A stretch of 29,071 nt of DNA, taken from an uncultured Sphingomonadaceae bacterium. Its GTDB lineage: Bacteria > Pseudomonadota > Alphaproteobacteria > Sphingomonadales > Sphingomonadaceae. This document shows positions 1,123-22,610 of this stretch, in pieces (the first letter of the stretch is position 1; the number at the start of each line of letters is the position of its first letter). The DNA lies in contig CAMLGC010000030.1 of NCBI GenBank assembly GCA_946479505.1, positions 1 to 29,071 on the forward strand, written 5' to 3'. The notes beneath the pieces were generated by a model. The model was not told where the DNA came from. It saw nothing but the letters and a program-made list of their open reading frames with translations, and made no database searches. The translations under genes were made by a program, and so were the position numbers.

Positions 1123-2292
1123 TTACAAGCGCTCGACGATCGTCACATTGGCGATCCCGCCGCCCTCGCACATCGTCTGCAGGCCGTAGCGCAACTCGCG
1201 CTTGCCCAGCGCATGGACGAGCGTCGCCATCAGCTTCGCGCCGGTCGCGCCGAGCGGATGGCCGAGCGCGATCGCGCCCCCGTTGATGTTGAGCTTCGCC
1301 GGGTCCGCCCCCGTGTGCCGCAGCCACGCGAGCGGCACCGGCGCGAACGCCTCGTTGACCTCGTACAGGTCGATGTCGTCGATCCGCATCCCCGCGCGCT
1401 TCAATGCCTTGTCGGTCGCGAACAACGGCTCTTCGAGCATGACGACGGGGTCGCCTCCCGTCACCGTCAAATTGTGGATGCGCGCCAGCGGCGTCAGTCC
1501 GTGCGCCCTGAGCGCGCGTTCGGAGACGACCATCACCGCGCTCGCACCGTCGCAGATCTGGCTCGCATTCGCCGCCGAGATCACGCCGTTTTCGGAGAGC
1601 AGCTTGACCGAGCCGATCCCCTCGCGCGAGGCATCGAAGCGGATGCCCTCGTCGACGCGGTGCTTCTCCTCGCCCTCGGCCGTCGTGACCGTCAGCGGCA
1701 CGATCTCGTCGTCGAAATCGCCCCGCTCGGTCGCCGCGGTGGCGCGGCGGTGGCTTTCGAGGGCGTAGTCGTCGAGCGCGTCGCGCGAGAAGCCGTATTT
1801 CCGCGCGATGCTCTCCGCGCCCAGGAACTGCGAGAAGGTGATGCCGGGGTAGCGCTCTTCCTGCCGCGGAGACTTGGCGCGTCCCAGCCCCGCATCCGCG
1901 AACAGCTTGCCGGTCGATCCCATCGGCACGCGCGTCATGCTCTCGACGCCCGCGGCGATCACCACGTCCTGCGTCCCCGACAGCACCGCCTGCGCCGCGA
2001 ACTGGATCGCCTGCTGCGAGGAGCCGCACTGCCGGTCGATCGTCACCGCGGGCACGCTTTCGGGGAGCTTCGAGGCGAGCACCGCGCCGCGCCCTACCTG
2101 AAACCCCTGCTCGCCCCCCTGGCTGACACAGCCCATGACGACATCTTCGATTGCGGCCGGATCGATCCCCGTCCGCTCGACCAATGCGTCGAGCACCGCG
2201 CCGGCCATGTCGGCGGGGTGCCAGCCGGCGAGCCGCCCTCCGCGCTTGCCGCCTGCGGTTCGCACCGCCTCGACGATATAGGCCTCGGCCAT
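1123..2292 (-). CDS. Acetyl-CoA acyltransferase (thiolase), FadA6/steroid-thiolase-like
   Basis: This is a thiolase of 389 residues that cleaves or forms 3-ketoacyl-CoA with CoA/acetyl-CoA. The nucleophilic Cys89 lies in DRQCGSSQQA, the NEAFA motif is present, His345 is in GGAIALGHPLGATG, and the second catalytic Cys375 is in TMCEGGG, so all catalytic elements are intact. The CGSSQQAI block resembles thiolases annotated as steroid or branched-chain 3-ketoacyl-CoA thiolases (FadA5/FadA6 type). The ATG at 2292 is preceded by GGAGAG, which decides against the upstream start at 2355. It is followed within about 30 bp by the SDR gene and probably forms an operon with it. The 94-bp gap from hom may hold its own promoter, but none is obvious. 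Confidence 0.93.
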   Translation of the reverse strand: MAEAYIVEAVRTAGGKRGGRLAGWHPADMAGAVLDALVERTGIDPAAIEDVVMGCVSQGGEQGFQVGRGAVLASKLPESVPAVTIDRQCGSSQQAIQFAAQAVLSGTQDVVIAAGVESMTRVPMGSTGKLFADAGLGRAKSPRQEERYPGITFSQFLGAESIARKYGFSRDALDDYALESHRRATAATERGDFDDEIVPLTVTTAEGEEKHRVDEGIRFDASREGIGSVKLLSENGVISAANASQICDGASAVMVVSERALRAHGLTPLARIHNLTVTGGDPVVMLEEPLFATDKALKRAGMRIDDIDLYEVNEAFAPVPLAWLRHTGADPAKLNINGGAIALGHPLGATGAKLMATLVHALGKRELRYGLQTMCEGGGIANVTIVERL

Positions 2293-2386
2293 TCCGCGCT
2301 CTCCATCAGGTTCGCGTTTGAAACTGATCCTGCGCGAATCCGGGGGCGTCGGCAAGGGGCGTTGCCATACCGGAACGTCGAAAAAT

Positions 2387-3676
2387 CTAGCCCAGGATAT
2401 GCATCCACATCGGCGCGCTCGTCAGGCTGGGCGATCCGGCGAGCTTGTCGAGCGCGTGCGCCACCGCGCGCTCGGGCCCCTCGTGCGTCACGATGGCGAC
2501 GATGACGCTGCCGTCGGGCATTGCGCCGCGCTGGATCAGGCTCTCGATCGAGACGCCGGCGTCGCGCATCGCGGCGGCGATCTCGGCGAGCACGCCCACC
2601 TTGTCGGCGACGGTGAAGCGCAGATAGGCGCGTCCGCGGCGCTCGCCCGTGTCGGCCTGGGGCTCGTCGGCAAGGCTTGCCGCGGGCATCGCGAAGGGCG
2701 GCCCGAACTCGCCGCGCGCGATGTCGATCAGGTCGGCGACCACGGCGGAGGCGGTCGGGCCGTCGCCCGCGCCCGCGCCCTCGAAGAACAGCCGCCCGAC
2801 AAAATTCCCTTCGGCGACGACGGCGTTCAGTGAGCCCGCGACATGCGCCAGCGGATGGCTTAGCGGCACCAGATGCGGGTGGACGCGCTGGAACAGGCCG
2901 TTCGCGCCCGCCTCGGCCACGCCCACCAGCCGGATGCGATAGCCGAGCGCCGCCGCCTCCGCGATGTCGGCCGCGATGACGTCGCGGATCCCGGTGATCG
3001 CGACCTGGTTGAAGGCCGGCCGCGTCCCGAAGGCGAGGCTGGCGAGGATGGCGAGCTTGTGCGCCGCGTCCACCCCGTCGATGTCGAAGCCCGGATCGGC
3101 TTCGGCAAAGCCCAAGGCCTGCGCCTCGGCGAGCACCTCGGCGAAGTCGCGGCCTTCCTCCTCCATCTTGGAAAGGATGAAGTTGCACGTGCCGTTGAGC
3201 ACACCATAGACGCGGCTGATCTCGTTCGCCGCCGCGCCCTCGCGCAGCCCCTTGATGACGGGGATGCCGCCCGCGACCGCCGCTTCGAACTTGAGCGCCG
3301 CGCCCGCCGCTTCGGCCGCTTGCGCAAGCTCGAACCCGTGATGCGCGATCATCGCCTTGTTGGCCGTGACGAAGTTGCGCCCCGCCTTGAGCGTTGCGCG
3401 TGCAAGCGTGAGCGCCGGCCCGTCCGATCCGCCGACCAGCTCGACCACCACGTCGACGCCATCGTGCGCCGCGAGTTCGGCCGCGTCGTCCACCCAGGCG
3501 AAGCGGCCGATATCGACGCCGCGATCCTTCGCCCGGTCGCGCGCGGTAACCGCGACGATCTCGATCGGCCTGCCGGCGCGCCGCGCGATCAACGATCCGT
3601 TGGTATCGATCAGCCGGATCACGCCGGCCCCGACGGTGCCAAGCCCCGCAAGGGCGATGCGCAATGGTTCGGTCAT
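2387..3676 (-). CDS. hom: Homoserine dehydrogenase with C-terminal ACT domain
   Basis: The enzyme reduces aspartate semialdehyde to homoserine (EC 1.1.1.3), the branch point to threonine and methionine. At 429 residues it has the usual length of monofunctional enzymes. The Rossmann motif GLGTVGAGV is at residues 11-19. The catalytic domain carries NGTCNFIL and DIDGVDAAHKL, with the conserved Asp and Lys. The last 80 or so residues (YLRFTVADKVGVLAEIA onward) form an ACT domain, known in this family for threonine feedback. The start ATG has AAGGGG five to six bases upstream. It is the first minus-strand gene of a run that continues into thiolase and SDR genes, with no metabolic link obvious from the sequence. 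Confidence 0.97.
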   Translation of the reverse strand: MTEPLRIALAGLGTVGAGVIRLIDTNGSLIARRAGRPIEIVAVTARDRAKDRGVDIGRFAWVDDAAELAAHDGVDVVVELVGGSDGPALTLARATLKAGRNFVTANKAMIAHHGFELAQAAEAAGAALKFEAAVAGGIPVIKGLREGAAANEISRVYGVLNGTCNFILSKMEEEGRDFAEVLAEAQALGFAEADPGFDIDGVDAAHKLAILASLAFGTRPAFNQVAITGIRDVIAADIAEAAALGYRIRLVGVAEAGANGLFQRVHPHLVPLSHPLAHVAGSLNAVVAEGNFVGRLFFEGAGAGDGPTASAVVADLIDIARGEFGPPFAMPAASLADEPQADTGERRGRAYLRFTVADKVGVLAEIAAAMRDAGVSIESLIQRGAMPDGSVIVAIVTHEGPERAVAHALDKLAGSPSLTSAPMWMHILG

Positions 3677-3687
3677 TCAATCCCCTT

Positions 3688-3711
3688 CGTCACCCCGGCC
3701 TGGTTCCGGGG
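3688..3711. repeat. REP-like half palindrome
   Basis: CGTCACCCCGG, a short loop, then CCGGGG forms a GC-rich hairpin just upstream of hom. It resembles one arm of the paired elements at 9337-9417 and 13004-13072, but its partner arm is not recognisable. The remaining 140 bp up to 3849 shows no gene and must contain the hom promoter if hom is transcribed separately. Confidence 0.5.
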
Positions 3712-3849
3712 GGCCACTCTTCCACTCGGGCTCAACGCCAGCGACGGCGCGACCGAGACCTTCGCGCTAACGGCCTGGTGGGTGTCGGAGCAAGTCGCTT
3801 CCCCTCAAAGCAATACTTTGACGGGTGCCCTGTCCGGCATGACGACAAA

Positions 3850-19987: not shown

Positions 19988-20743
19988 ATGGTCGCGTCTC
20001 TCCGTCGTCAACGCCTGATCCTGCCGATCGCGCCCGTGTTCGCGGGTGCGCTGGGGCTCCTTACTGCGCTCGCCTTCGCGCTGTTGCCGATGGCGGCGAT
20101 CGAGCGGGGCGCGATGGAAAGCGGGCTCGCCGGCCTCCTTCCCGCCGCCGCACCGCCGCTCGGCGTCACCGCGCGCATCGCGCTGATCCTGGCCGGCGGC
20201 GCGGGCGTCACCGCGATTCTATGGGCCGGGCTCACGCTCGCCGTCGGCACCCGCGCGCTTGCGCTGACCTTCGGCAGCGGCGCGGAAGAAGCCGACGAGG
20301 TGCCCGTGCTCCGCCGTGCCGATGCGCATCCCGACGCGCCCGCGCGCCGCCCGATCTCGGCCGCGCGCGATCTCGGCGAGCCGATCGAGGAGGTGCCGCC
20401 GATCGTCGAGCGCGACCTGCCCGAGGATCTCGACCAGCCGCTCGCCGCTTATGATCCCGGCGCGATCCGCCCGGTGCCGGCGGAGCCGGTGCGCGCGGTT
20501 GCGCCGCTGGCGAAGGTCGAACGCCCGCAGACCTTCGATGCGACCGAGCGGTTCGAAACCTTTGCCCTGATCCTGCCCGCAGCCAAACCGAGCCCGGAAG
20601 CAACGATCCATGCGCTGCTCGACCGGCTGGAGCAGGGTGTCGCCCGCCGCGATCGGCCGCTGCCGGTGTTGTGCGACGCGGCCACGGGAAGCCGGGTTGA
20701 TGACGCGCTCGGCGCATTGCGCAACCTTGCATCGGGGCGCTGA
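19988..20743 (+). CDS. Membrane-anchored protein of unknown function
   Basis: The product is 251 residues. Two hydrophobic segments (about residues 12-36 and 60-90) are followed by a long cytosolic region rich in Pro, Ala and Glu. A short, more ordered C-terminal end begins around FDATERFETFALILPAAKP and contains IHALLDRLEQGVARRD. No family is recognised. It starts three bases after the glycosyltransferase stop codon and so is probably expressed with it, perhaps as a cell-envelope accessory protein. Convergent with the minus-strand gene ending at 20803; the 59-bp spacer shows no clear terminator. Confidence 0.75.
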   Translation: MVASLRRQRLILPIAPVFAGALGLLTALAFALLPMAAIERGAMESGLAGLLPAAAPPLGVTARIALILAGGAGVTAILWAGLTLAVGTRALALTFGSGAEEADEVPVLRRADAHPDAPARRPISAARDLGEPIEEVPPIVERDLPEDLDQPLAAYDPGAIRPVPAEPVRAVAPLAKVERPQTFDATERFETFALILPAAKPSPEATIHALLDRLEQGVARRDRPLPVLCDAATGSRVDDALGALRNLASGR

Positions 20744-20802
20744 CGCTCCGTCTCGGCGCGAGGCAAAGTTGACCAAGTTGACTGTCCCATCGCGAGTCCA
20801 GT

Positions 20803-21117
20803 TCATCGATCCTCGACGGTGAGTGCCTGGATGTCCGCCTCGATGCGGTCGTGCGAGGCGCGCATCGCGACGACCGTGAGATCGGCGACCAAATGGCCGC
20901 GCAATGCGAGCTCGCGCTCGGGCAGCGCGGTAAGCCAATCGTCGAGCGCGGGTGATGCCGGCCCCGCGACCGACAGCCGGTGCTGCGCCCCGACAAAAGT
21001 CGCGCTCGCCCAGTGCGTCCAGTCCGACGCGATCAGCGTGAGGGCGACGCCATCCGCCTCGGCGGCGGCGAGCAGCGCGCGGGCGAGGAGCGTCCCCGCA
21101 TCGGGACCGCGGCTCAT
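20803..21117 (-). CDS. Small protein of unknown function, second gene of a GTTC-box pair
   Basis: The product is 104 residues, soluble, with a helix-rich first half (TLLARALLAAAEADGVALTL) and a central DWTHWASATFVGAQH stretch with two Trp and two His. The C-terminal half is predicted helical (LRGHLVADLTVVAMRASHD). No known domain is recognised. Its ATG overlaps the TGA of the upstream small gene as ATGA, so it is translationally coupled. The frame is open further upstream to 21342, but that part is a shadow of the upstream gene. Confidence 0.75.
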   Translation of the reverse strand: MSRGPDAGTLLARALLAAAEADGVALTLIASDWTHWASATFVGAQHRLSVAGPASPALDDWLTALPERELALRGHLVADLTVVAMRASHDRIEADIQALTVEDR

Positions 21118-21296
21118 CGGGCGCCTCCAAGTCGCGTAAGCGTCGCTTCGATGCGCGCCACCAGGCGCGGCCCCGGTTCGCGGCCGCGCCTGAGGTCGCC
21201 GACCAGCCGCGGGTCGTTGACCGCAATTCGCCCGAAGCGAGTCGGCGGCATCTCCGATTGGCGCAGAAAGCGTTCGATCTTGCTCAAAACTGCCAT
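21114..21296 (-). CDS. 60-aa putative DNA-binding protein, first gene of a GTTC-box pair
   Basis: A short basic protein starts MAVLSKIERFLRQSEMPPTR and ends in EATLTRLGGAR. The order helix (SKIERFLRQ), PPTRFGRIAVNDPRLVGDLRRGREP, helix resembles a compact helix-turn-helix of the kind found in sphingomonad small regulators; this is an inference from pattern. The start at 21296 has GGGGAT six bases before it; ATGs at 21302 and 21308 are less well placed. The gene is divergent from the S24 regulator, and the GTTC-N7-GTTC motif lies 27-41 bp upstream of its start, inside its likely promoter. Confidence 0.75.
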   Translation of the reverse strand: MAVLSKIERFLRQSEMPPTRFGRIAVNDPRLVGDLRRGREPGPRLVARIEATLTRLGGAR

Positions 21297-21320
21297 TGTC
21301 ATCCCCATGCGACTCGATTG

Positions 21321-21349
21321 ATGTTCTCAAATTGTTCTCCATTTTCCAA
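21321..21349 (-). promoter_or_regulatory. Candidate promoter of the small-gene pair
   Basis: On the minus strand, TTGGAA (21349-21344), a 17-bp spacer and GAACAT (21326-21321) form a moderate sigma70 match. A start near 21314 would give an 18-nt leader that includes the ribosome site. The GTTC repeats lie within the spacer and -10. Confidence 0.35.
21323..21337. promoter_or_regulatory. GTTC-N7-GTTC, alphaproteobacterial LexA-box form
   Basis: GTTC at 21323-21326 and 21334-21337 are separated by seven bases (TCAAATT), exactly the direct-repeat form known for LexA in alphaproteobacteria. The repeat extends to TGTTCTC in both copies with 11-bp periodicity, one helical turn. It overlaps the predicted promoter of the small-gene pair. 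It could bind LexA or the neighbouring S24 protein; sequence alone does not tell. Confidence 0.65.
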
Positions 21350-21350
21350 C

Positions 21351-21379
21351 TTGTCTAGGAAAAATCCTGCGACTATGAT
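21351..21379 (+). promoter_or_regulatory. Sigma70-like promoter of the S24 gene
   Basis: TTGTCT (21351-21356), a 17-bp spacer and TATGAT (21374-21379) give a good vegetative match in an AT-richer stretch. Counting seven bases past the -10 puts the start at about 21386, the first base of the GTG start codon. Confidence 0.6.
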
Positions 21380-21385
21380 GCGGGC

Positions 21386-22015
21386 GTGGCAGCGGCCGAT
21401 CCCCGCGCCGCGCTCGCGCGGCTGGTGGCGGCGCATGGCGAAAGCTATGCGGCGCTCTCGCGGCTGCTCGGGCGCAACCCGGCCTATCTCCAGCAATATG
21501 TGATGCGCGGCACCCCGCGGGTGCTTTCCGAGCGCGACCGGGCGAGGCTCGCGTCGTGGTTCCGGGTGGACGAGGCGGTGCTCGGCGGACCCGAACGCGC
21601 GGTGGGGCCGGTGGTGGTGCCGCGGCTCGACGTCGCGGCCTCTGCGGGGCCGGGCGGGATCGTCGAAGGCGAGGCGGCGCTGGGCGGGATGGCGATCGAC
21701 GCGGGGCTGGTGCGCAGCCTCGGCGTCGATGTGGGCGCACTCTCGATGATCCGCGCGCAGGGGGATTCGATGCTGCCGACGATCGCCGACGGCGACGAGA
21801 TCCTGATCGATACGAGCGACCGTCGCGTGACCTCGCGCGGCGGGATCTTCGTGGTGCGTCTCGACGGCGCGCTGATCGTCAAGCGCATCGCACGCGACGG
21901 ACTGGGACTAACGATCCGCAGCGATAACCCGGCCTATGGGGCGATCGAGGGCGATATGGCGCGGAAGGCGGAGATTATCGGGCGCGTGGTCTGGCTCGCG
22001 CGGGCGTTGCGGTGA
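21386..22015 (+). CDS. S24-family LexA/CI-like regulator with helix-turn-helix
   Basis: The product is 209 residues. The N-terminal 60 or so residues form a small helix-turn-helix (SYAALSRLLGRNPAYLQQYV). The C-terminal S24 peptidase domain (about residues 75-205) has Ser128 in AQGDSMLPTIADGD and Lys166 in GALIVKRIA. The 38-residue Ser-Lys spacing resembles LexA. An Ala-Gly pair in VAASAGPGG (residues 87-88) is a possible self-cleavage site. It is not LexA itself, whose winged HTH differs, but could be a cleavable or retired repressor. The start is GTG and no ribosome site precedes it, consistent with a leaderless transcript. It is divergent from the small-gene pair and may regulate it. Confidence 0.88.
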   Translation: MAAADPRAALARLVAAHGESYAALSRLLGRNPAYLQQYVMRGTPRVLSERDRARLASWFRVDEAVLGGPERAVGPVVVPRLDVAASAGPGGIVEGEAALGGMAIDAGLVRSLGVDVGALSMIRAQGDSMLPTIADGDEILIDTSDRRVTSRGGIFVVRLDGALIVKRIARDGLGLTIRSDNPAYGAIEGDMARKAEIIGRVVWLARALR

Positions 22016-22023
22016 GCGGCCCC

Positions 22024-22040
22024 CTCCCTTTGCAAGGGAG
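22024..22040. terminator. Hairpin between converging genes
   Basis: CTCCCTT (22024-22030), a TGC loop and AAGGGAG (22034-22040) form a perfect 7-bp stem. It lies eight bases past the S24 stop and twelve before the stop of the 58-aa gene on the other strand. No long U tract follows on either strand. Confidence 0.45.
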
Positions 22041-22051
22041 TGAGGGACGTC

Positions 22052-22228
22052 TTACCGCCGCCGGTCGATCAGCCAAACGGCGACGGCCATTCCGATGCCC
22101 GCGGCGGTACCGACGAGGAAACCCTCGGTCGGTTGATAGAGAACGAAGCCGATGATCGCGCCGCCGAGCGCGCCCAGCGCGATCAGCGCGCCGCCGGCGA
22201 CGGGGGAGCGGGAAGGAGGGGTGGCCAT
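22052..22228 (-). CDS. 58-aa membrane protein
   Basis: A short frame reads MATPPSRSPVAGGALIALGA, continues LGGAIIGFVLYQPTEGFLVG and ends TAAGIGMAVAVWLIDRRR before a TAA. Two hydrophobic segments (about residues 11-31 and 36-54) separated by a short YQPTEG turn suggest a hairpin in the inner membrane, with the basic end RRR in the cytosol. Purine-rich GGGCGGG precedes the ATG. The frame is below common length cut-offs and easily missed. Function unknown. Confidence 0.7.
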   Translation of the reverse strand: MATPPSRSPVAGGALIALGALGGAIIGFVLYQPTEGFLVGTAAGIGMAVAVWLIDRRR

Positions 22229-22403
22229 GGCGCCCGCCCTGCCATGTCCCGTTGCGGCGCGCCAGTGTTCCGTTGCGGGATGCGCGGGGCAGCCAAAGCG
22301 GCGATGGTGAACGGCGATTGACCATCACTTTGCACGCACTGTCCACGAACCCGCGTTACCGAACGGGGCTTATCACGGCGCCGCGGTTCGCTCGGGAGAT
22401 TTA

Positions 22404-22610
22404 ATGCCGCTCTATCTTTCGAGCCGCGCCGATGTGCGCGACGCGGTCGAGCTCGTTTCGCGTTTCGGCGGCATGGCCGCGGCGGAAGCCGCGCTGCGGG
22501 CCGACCGGAGCCGCGCGCTCGGCAACGCGCTCCATTTCTGCCGCTGGCGCCAGATCGAGCGACTGATCGCGCTGATGGAGGCAGAAGAGGCCTCGGGCAC
22601 GGTGCATTGA
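22404..22610 (+). CDS. 68-aa soluble protein of unknown function
   Basis: The product reads MPLYLSSRADVRDAVELVSR, with a central FGGMAAAEAALRADRSRALG and a LHFCRWRQIERLIALMEAEE end. It looks fully helical and may be a small regulator or adaptor; no domain is recognised. GGGAG six bases before the ATG is a good ribosome site. The 175-bp region upstream (22229-22403) contains a near-repeat of GTTGCGG at 22250 and 22270 and otherwise nothing clear. It is 78 bp before tamA and could be co-transcribed. Confidence 0.75.
   Translation: MPLYLSSRADVRDAVELVSRFGGMAAAEAALRADRSRALGNALHFCRWRQIERLIALMEAEEASGTVH

Follow-up and report, generated by a model that had tools for sequence, protein, structure and literature searches.

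A LexA Box and a Candidate S24 Repressor Operator Share the Divergent Spacer of a Widespread Sphingomonad Locus

Results

Gene organization and encoded proteins

The window analyzed here is a 29,071-nucleotide (nt) stretch of DNA from an uncultured Sphingomonadaceae bacterium (GenBank assembly GCA_946479505.1, contig CAMLGC010000030.1, positions 1 to 29,071), whose closest named relatives are Hephaestia species. It contains two small genes on the reverse strand, termed hth60 (21114..21296; 60 amino acids, aa) and p104 (20803..21117; 104 aa), and, divergent from them on the forward strand, the gene of a LexA/CI-like helix-turn-helix (HTH) regulator of the S24 family (21386..22015; 209 aa, GTG start), hereafter called S24. 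The ATG start of hth60 at position 21296 is backed by relatives. An initial annotation, made from the sequence alone, had described two ATGA-coupled genes of 60 and 104 aa beside a divergent S24 regulator, and both the gene sizes and the overlap agree with that description. The overlap of hth60 and p104 measured 4 nt in 71 of 81 close loci (window included) and 1, 6, or 7 nt in the other 10.

A consensus promoter scan of positions 20700 to 22300 returned a single promoter, that of S24 on the forward strand, with a -35 element TTGTCT (21351-21356), a 17-nt spacer, and a -10 element TATGAT (21374-21379). No consensus promoter for hth60-p104 was found on the pair's strand in the same interval, which does not bear out the earlier claim that a GTTC-N7-GTTC box lies within a predicted promoter of the two genes. 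Because the S24 start codon falls at about +1 relative to its promoter, the S24 transcript is possibly leaderless; a similar promoter-to-start-codon spacing was also seen in the S24 spacers of relatives.

The S24 protein matched Peptidase_S24 (PF00717; 1.8e-18) and, over residues 12-207, the phage repressor family phrog_4 (1.9e-33), while Pfam HTH models remained below cut-off. Like the self-cleaving S24 repressors (LexA, CI, UmuD), it has an Ala-Gly bond and a Ser-Lys dyad behind the HTH region, and these residues are intact across 182 aligned orthologues (Ala in 180 rows and Thr in one; Gly, Ser, and Lys in 181 rows each; one gap row per position). S24 was rejected as LexA proper, as it scored 29.1 bits against TIGR00498 (cut-off 110.95) and a separate LexA scored above cut-off in 14 of 14 genomes.

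Neither hth60 nor p104 had a family match in Pfam or NCBIfam. The statement in the initial annotation that neither small protein belongs to a known family therefore holds for sequence in these two databases, but predicted structures show resemblances. The hth60 model (predicted local distance difference test, pLDDT, 91.5) gave PDB rows that include P22 c2, HigA, SinR, and CUT domains, none at a Foldseek E ≤ 0.001, and hth60 looks like a repressor-type HTH protein by prediction. The p104 model resembled phage tail terminators in fold (DUF3168/PF11367), with 6tba_4A, a chain of a gene transfer agent (GTA) particle, as its top match; p104 is possibly descended from a phage protein. A sequence relationship of p104 to six sphingomonad DUF3168 proteins found no support, at an hhalign probability of 0.3%.

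Genes resembling hth60 also adjoin distant S24 genes in three additional loci (L336-L338). Since no p104 was found there, the pairing of S24 with hth60 may predate p104. In L336 and L338, the hth60-like gene beside the distant S24 gene has two tandem HTH copies.

Distribution of the unit

For a first sample, genome contigs were scanned with a p104 alignment and the best 80 of 143 relatives were used. All loci were picked by p104, and S24 genes without p104 are therefore outside what the counts can say. Matches to hth60 and S24 were present in all 80 loci, although S24 lay ~2 kb off in one of them (L023). Among 30 further loci, hth60 was found in every one and a divergent S24 in 28. In a family sample, p104 was found in 261 of 298 genomes, mostly as a single match and as two matches in four listed genomes. 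A sample of 190 genomes from the class had p104 in 3, each of them also part of the family sample. From the places listed for the family sample 80 were taken, and G216, G294, G317, and G268 in that range were passed over. Left out were L154 (same genome as L001), L202 (without an hth60 hit), and one duplicate spacer. In the combined set of 191 loci, window included, p104 and hth60 occurred together in 190, and a divergent S24 lay within 400 bp in 183 of these 190. The unit belongs to the sphingomonad core genome, and most sphingomonads examined carry such a switch. Counts over 182 unique spacers, given below, leave out seven loci without S24 within 400 bp, among them L024, which has the usual gene order and was lost to a parsing fault; those over 79 parsed close spacers leave out L023 and L068. 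One record with a sphingomonad-like locus is titled Bacillus sp. 2B10 (L079) and is probably mislabelled or contaminated.

LexA box

The divergent spacer of the window contains an exact GTTC-N7-GTTC motif, GTTCTCAAATTGTTC, at positions 21323-21337 (forward strand), precisely where the initial annotation had placed it. The same annotation had proposed a genome-wide scan for the motif and a comparison across sphingomonads, and both were performed on genomes and loci of relatives. GTTCTCAAATTGTTC was the sole exact match in the window, for which the chance expectation is 0.69. In four whole genomes of relatives, the bare motif occurred 72 to 152 times; because the reversed pattern is also frequent (23 to 77 times), a bare match means little. 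The box at 21323-21337, though at chance level in the window alone, is significant because its position is conserved: an exact box was present at the same place in the divergent spacer of 66 of 80 homologous loci, as against 0.17% of shuffled spacers. Lack of the motif in related genomes, which the initial annotation had named as a refuting result, was thus not observed. In the 14 loci without an exact box, the motif was off by one base in 13 and by two in one, mostly as GATC-N7-GTTC. In genomes of relatives, the motif also stands upstream of lexA (14 of 14) and recA (12 of 14), which supports its earlier identification as the LexA box form. It equals the GTTC-N7-GTTC motif given for the alphaproteobacterial LexA regulon in a published study (PMC7987155). 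Its form and conserved position suggest that LexA would control hth60-p104 through this box.

Candidate operator of S24

A candidate operator of S24, TAGGAAAAATCCTA, is located at positions 21345-21369 (forward strand) and consists of the half-sites TCCAA (21345-21349), TAGGA (21356-21360), and TCCTG (21365-21369). Its consensus, TCCWA-CTTGTC-TAGGA-N4-TCCTA (the core), overlaps the -35 element and fills the interval between the -35 and -10 elements of the S24 promoter. The core, which had escaped the initial annotation, is more conserved than the LexA box; a pattern search detected it in 173 of 182 spacers. Box and core were separated by 5-7 bp in 77 of 79 spacers. When eight genomes were searched for the palindrome TAGGAN4TCCTA, it occurred once in seven and twice in the eighth, and the eight expected sites all lay at the S24/pair spacer; only the place of this palindrome, not its genome-wide count, is telling. 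The lone extra site, in Sphingomonas sp. QA11 (L089; L358:14162), lies beside GACTC and a LexA box. The genes next to this second composite are of uncertain origin, and no match to S24, hth60, or p104 was found in 57 kb.

In L023, an insertion of ~2 kb (about 1790-3740) divides the divergent spacer at a point in the -35 region of the core; the LexA box stays with hth60 and an intact core with S24. Where an S24 orthologue lies apart from the pair, the core or palindrome was present upstream of S24 in four of six genomes (G230, G462, G398, and G221). The core beside the pair was degraded in L168, L172, and L215, in which S24 also lies apart. Of seven distant S24 relatives (L332-L338), judged without a chance control, four had an upstream palindrome with at most two mismatches: the near-identical L332 and L333 and also L338 with two mismatches, and L334 with an exact palindrome farther upstream. 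No such palindrome was found upstream of S24 in L335-L337. This indirect case, made from the promoter position, L023, the separated S24 genes, and the distant relatives, suggests that the S24 protein would bind the core.

GANTC site

The sequence CGACTCG at positions 21310-21316 (forward strand), likewise missed earlier, contains a GANTC site of the CcrM type. Read on the complementary strand, it is CGAGTCG, which matches the GcrA motif YGAKTCG published in PMC7987155. The same study discusses neighboring LexA and GANTC sites in Caulobacterales and conserved GANTC sites that overlap LexA motifs at SOS genes such as ruvC and imuA. GANTC was found in 170 of 182 spacers compared with 19.5% of shuffled spacers, and in 77 of 79 close spacers, where its flanks mostly fit YGAKTCG. 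A GANTC no more than 40 bp away accompanies the box in 87 of 95 pair spacers, compared with 1 of 14 lexA and 1 of 12 recA promoters; at these two genes, GANTC is thus not a generic neighbor of the SOS box in these genomes.

Operators on the pair's side of the spacer

Among the 182 unique spacers, an exact LexA box was counted in 93 (8 of them with an additional palindrome-like stretch) and a box with one mismatch in 19 (one of them with an additional palindrome). Another 29 spacers, all without a LexA box, have a second S24-type palindrome with at most two mismatches on the pair's side (background, 1.7% of shuffled spacers), a feature that the initial annotation had not noted. The association between box and palindrome gave a Fisher p of 1e-6, uncorrected and with related genomes counted as independent. 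When exact and one-mismatch boxes were mapped together onto a quick S24 tree, at least 15 changes were counted; for the state counts, L190, which has a one-mismatch box and a palindrome, was assigned by hand to the palindrome group. That one operator was replaced by the other is a suggestion from these distributions. The initial annotation had offered an SOS-induced unit or a two-sided switch run by S24 as alternatives. Both may hold, each by way of a different element, given that S24 has an element at its own promoter and a second copy on the pair's side in the 29 box-less spacers; the earlier interpretation is thus supported in part.

Phage contigs with the composite region

A search of virus contigs for the LexA box together with the core pattern gave 12 matches, and the reversed pattern gave 0. 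Two of these contigs (L266 and L268) are host loci beside a prophage, and ten are phage (L290, L292, and L300-L307). No S24 or p104 match was found in the available stretch of any of the ten. In nine, the exception being L306, the gene on the pair's side encodes a small protein with the motif C-x3-C-x2-C-x3-C. Searches with two subsets of this Cys-rich protein returned 11 rows, of which 8 that matched over just 13 residues were set aside; the three contigs thus added (L309, L310, and L312) all have a LexA box, and the S24-like half-sites have diverged in L309 and L312. Against INPHARED, the Cys-rich protein of L304 had no match and that of L301 a single 36-residue match in an unannotated record; against PHROGs, one of nine members matched, with an E of 0.015.

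In total, 13 phage contigs were obtained, six of 41-48 kb and the others shorter. In 11 of them (not in L300 or L306), the box has a GANTC no farther than 40 bp away, and hth60-like genes were present in L303 and L312. The PF00717 profile detected no S24 domain in any of the 11 phage contigs scanned, and the same profile was positive in the host loci L266 and L268. For the other two, L290 and L292, a search with the S24-orthologue alignment was likewise empty, though without a positive control in that search. Phage genes included integrases in L300 and L306 (2 of 13), exonucleases in the same two contigs, Erf and a RecE-like exonuclease in L292, and an O-like replication protein in L303; the viral nature of the remaining contigs is the call of IMG/VR. 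Because the same sites are present and an S24 gene was not detected, these phages are probably wired to the two repressors of the host. The composite sites suggest that the phages would respond to the damage alarm of their presumed hosts.

A wider search of viral sequences for the core alone matched 19 contigs, namely eight host loci beside a prophage, two of the composites above (L290 and L292), and nine that were taken as chance. The latter had no S24, hth60, or p104 match and no LexA box in 75 nt. Eight core-bearing virus contigs (L265-L272; L265 equals L267 over the stretch compared) have foreign sequence resembling a prophage end adjoining the operon, and p104 was not found in them. The junction lies in the first codons of hth60 in L266, L268, and L272 and just past hth60 in L265, L267, L269, L270, and L271. 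These junctions may represent a repeated insertion place, the phage type having been judged by eye.

Discussion

We propose that S24, hth60, and p104 constitute a conserved, damage-responsive, CI/Cro-like unit under the control of LexA and of its own S24 repressor, a reading to which we give a probability of about 0.6. It builds on the sequence elements, their conservation, the gene order, and the intact catalytic residues observed here, together with folds by prediction. From these we infer binding, cleavage, damage induction, the leaderless S24 start, the functions of hth60 and p104, the direction of evolution, and the hosts of the phages. In the undamaged cell, S24 would bind TCCWA-N6-TAGGA-N4-TCCTA across its own -35/-10 region and thereby curb its own synthesis, and LexA (in other lineages, S24 at its second site) would repress the hth60-p104 operon. 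RecA filaments would then prompt the self-cleavage of both LexA and S24, so that both sides would be released together. In such a unit, hth60 would act as a Cro-like small repressor and p104 as the output protein, with the GANTC site adding cell-cycle input through CcrM/GcrA.

A number of results weigh against this proposal. LexA control is not universal: in 41 of 182 spacers, a LexA box (even with one mismatch) and a second palindrome are both missing. One Sphingomonas group has GATC as the first half-site instead of GTTC. An exchange of box for palindrome was not supported phylogenetically, as five independent pairs on supported branches gave a median p of 1 and left the sign test undecided. 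The palindrome TAGGAN4TCCTA shows no excess over chance, with 9 sites in eight genomes versus 16 of the reversed pattern, and no core was found upstream of S24 in G318 or in G237, whose S24 gene is split between two contigs. Neither the hth60 nor the p104 model had a PDB Foldseek row at E ≤ 0.001, and homology of p104 to the DUF3168/GTA tail terminators was not supported by sequence, PF11367 not being among the matches of 107 members (E 0.5). As for the phages, the empty S24-orthologue search of L290 and L292 had no positive control, and the contigs may be fragments.

The position of the box on the pair's side, and the many lineages in which the core overlaps the S24 promoter only, would also be expected if LexA alone governed hth60-p104 as a plain SOS pair and S24 were an autoregulated neighbor without effect on the pair. 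We consider this unlikely in view of the divergent S24 found no more than 400 bp away in 183 of 190 loci and of the 29 spacers (of 182) that lack a LexA box but have an S24-type palindrome on the pair's side. Alternatively, S24 itself might bind the GTTC box and govern both sides without LexA, which would suit the nearly fixed distance of 5-7 bp between box and core in 77 of 79 spacers. The box, however, equals the lexA and recA boxes, and lineages without it retain S24 and its core, which makes such a one-box switch very improbable.

A different role is brought to mind by RogA of Caulobacter crescentus, which resembles S24 as an HTH-S24 protein of ~210 aa with GGA-type inverted repeats and few genomic sites. 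As reported in PMC9632790, RogA is a 213-aa repressor of gafYZ with two chromatin immunoprecipitation peaks and GGAA-N4-TTCC repeats at its targets, and is described as lacking catalytic residues. If S24 and the pair similarly governed GTA or prophage production, p104 would be akin to a GTA tail protein, and its top fold match is indeed the GTA particle chain 6tba_4A. S24, in contrast, keeps the catalytic residues, its site form is AGGA-N4-TCCT with a different half-site spacing, a second operator elsewhere is absent in seven of eight genomes, and p104 could not be linked by sequence to the DUF3168 proteins of sphingomonads; we therefore find a RogA-like role quite unlikely. That hth60 is a HigA-like antitoxin and p104 its toxin strikes us as barely credible: the fold rows of hth60 do include HigA antitoxins and the two genes are small and overlapping, yet p104 had no match to a toxin family, and its occurrence in 261 of 298 family genomes, mostly as a single match, is not that of a typical mobile pair.

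Lambda-type CI/Cro immunity regions comprise a divergent S24 repressor and a small HTH protein with operators between them. The sphingomonad locus, with hth60 as a predicted HTH protein and with candidate operators, has a like arrangement, but it is a chromosomal core locus, its p104 has a predicted fold like that of a tail terminator, and its control region contains a LexA box. The closest described unit is that of FddR in Francisella, a probably phage-derived S24 repressor that controls itself and divergent genes; in Francisella, damage does not induce the canonical SOS genes, and the site has the form GTG-N11-CAC (PMC13148647). In the sphingomonad unit, by contrast, a true LexA is present, a LexA box lies in the same spacer, and the composite region also occurs in phages. 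Compared with the alphaproteobacterial LexA regulon, the motif at the pair is identical to that at lexA and recA, and the pair spacer adds an S24-type element and GANTC. A temperate phage promoter repressed by host LexA is known from phage GIL01 (PMC4551915); the phage region described here differs by the additional presence of a site of the form used for S24, a second repressor of the host. Open-access titles and the starts of abstracts contained no literature on the sphingomonad locus. In the open-access literature searched, there was likewise no precedent for a widespread chromosomal spacer that combines a LexA box, a putatively autoregulatory S24 site, and GANTC, nor for the recurrence of this combination in phages without detected S24.

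More tentatively, and with the odds somewhat against it, host S24 and LexA may jointly serve as the lysogeny repressors of sphingophages that carry the composite operator without an S24 gene, host and phages sharing one damage-alarm network. In such a network, an old, domesticated CI/Cro-like switch and cell-cycle methylation would time the release of both hth60-p104 and the phages. If phages do depend on both of these host repressors, the genes for their immunity would lie in the core genome of the host, and our understanding of superinfection and induction in sphingomonads would change. The damage-responsive unit that we favor would also extend to a second lineage, one with a working LexA, the view that phage-derived S24 units can be the starting point of SOS networks. 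With it, one can test how a single promoter makes use of LexA as opposed to S24 operators, and p104, a widespread sphingomonad gene of unknown role, gains a concrete context.

Downstream of S24 in the window, positions 22404-22610 (forward strand) contain a 68-aa open reading frame without a family match, for which a tblastn match was found in 71 of 81 loci, window included.
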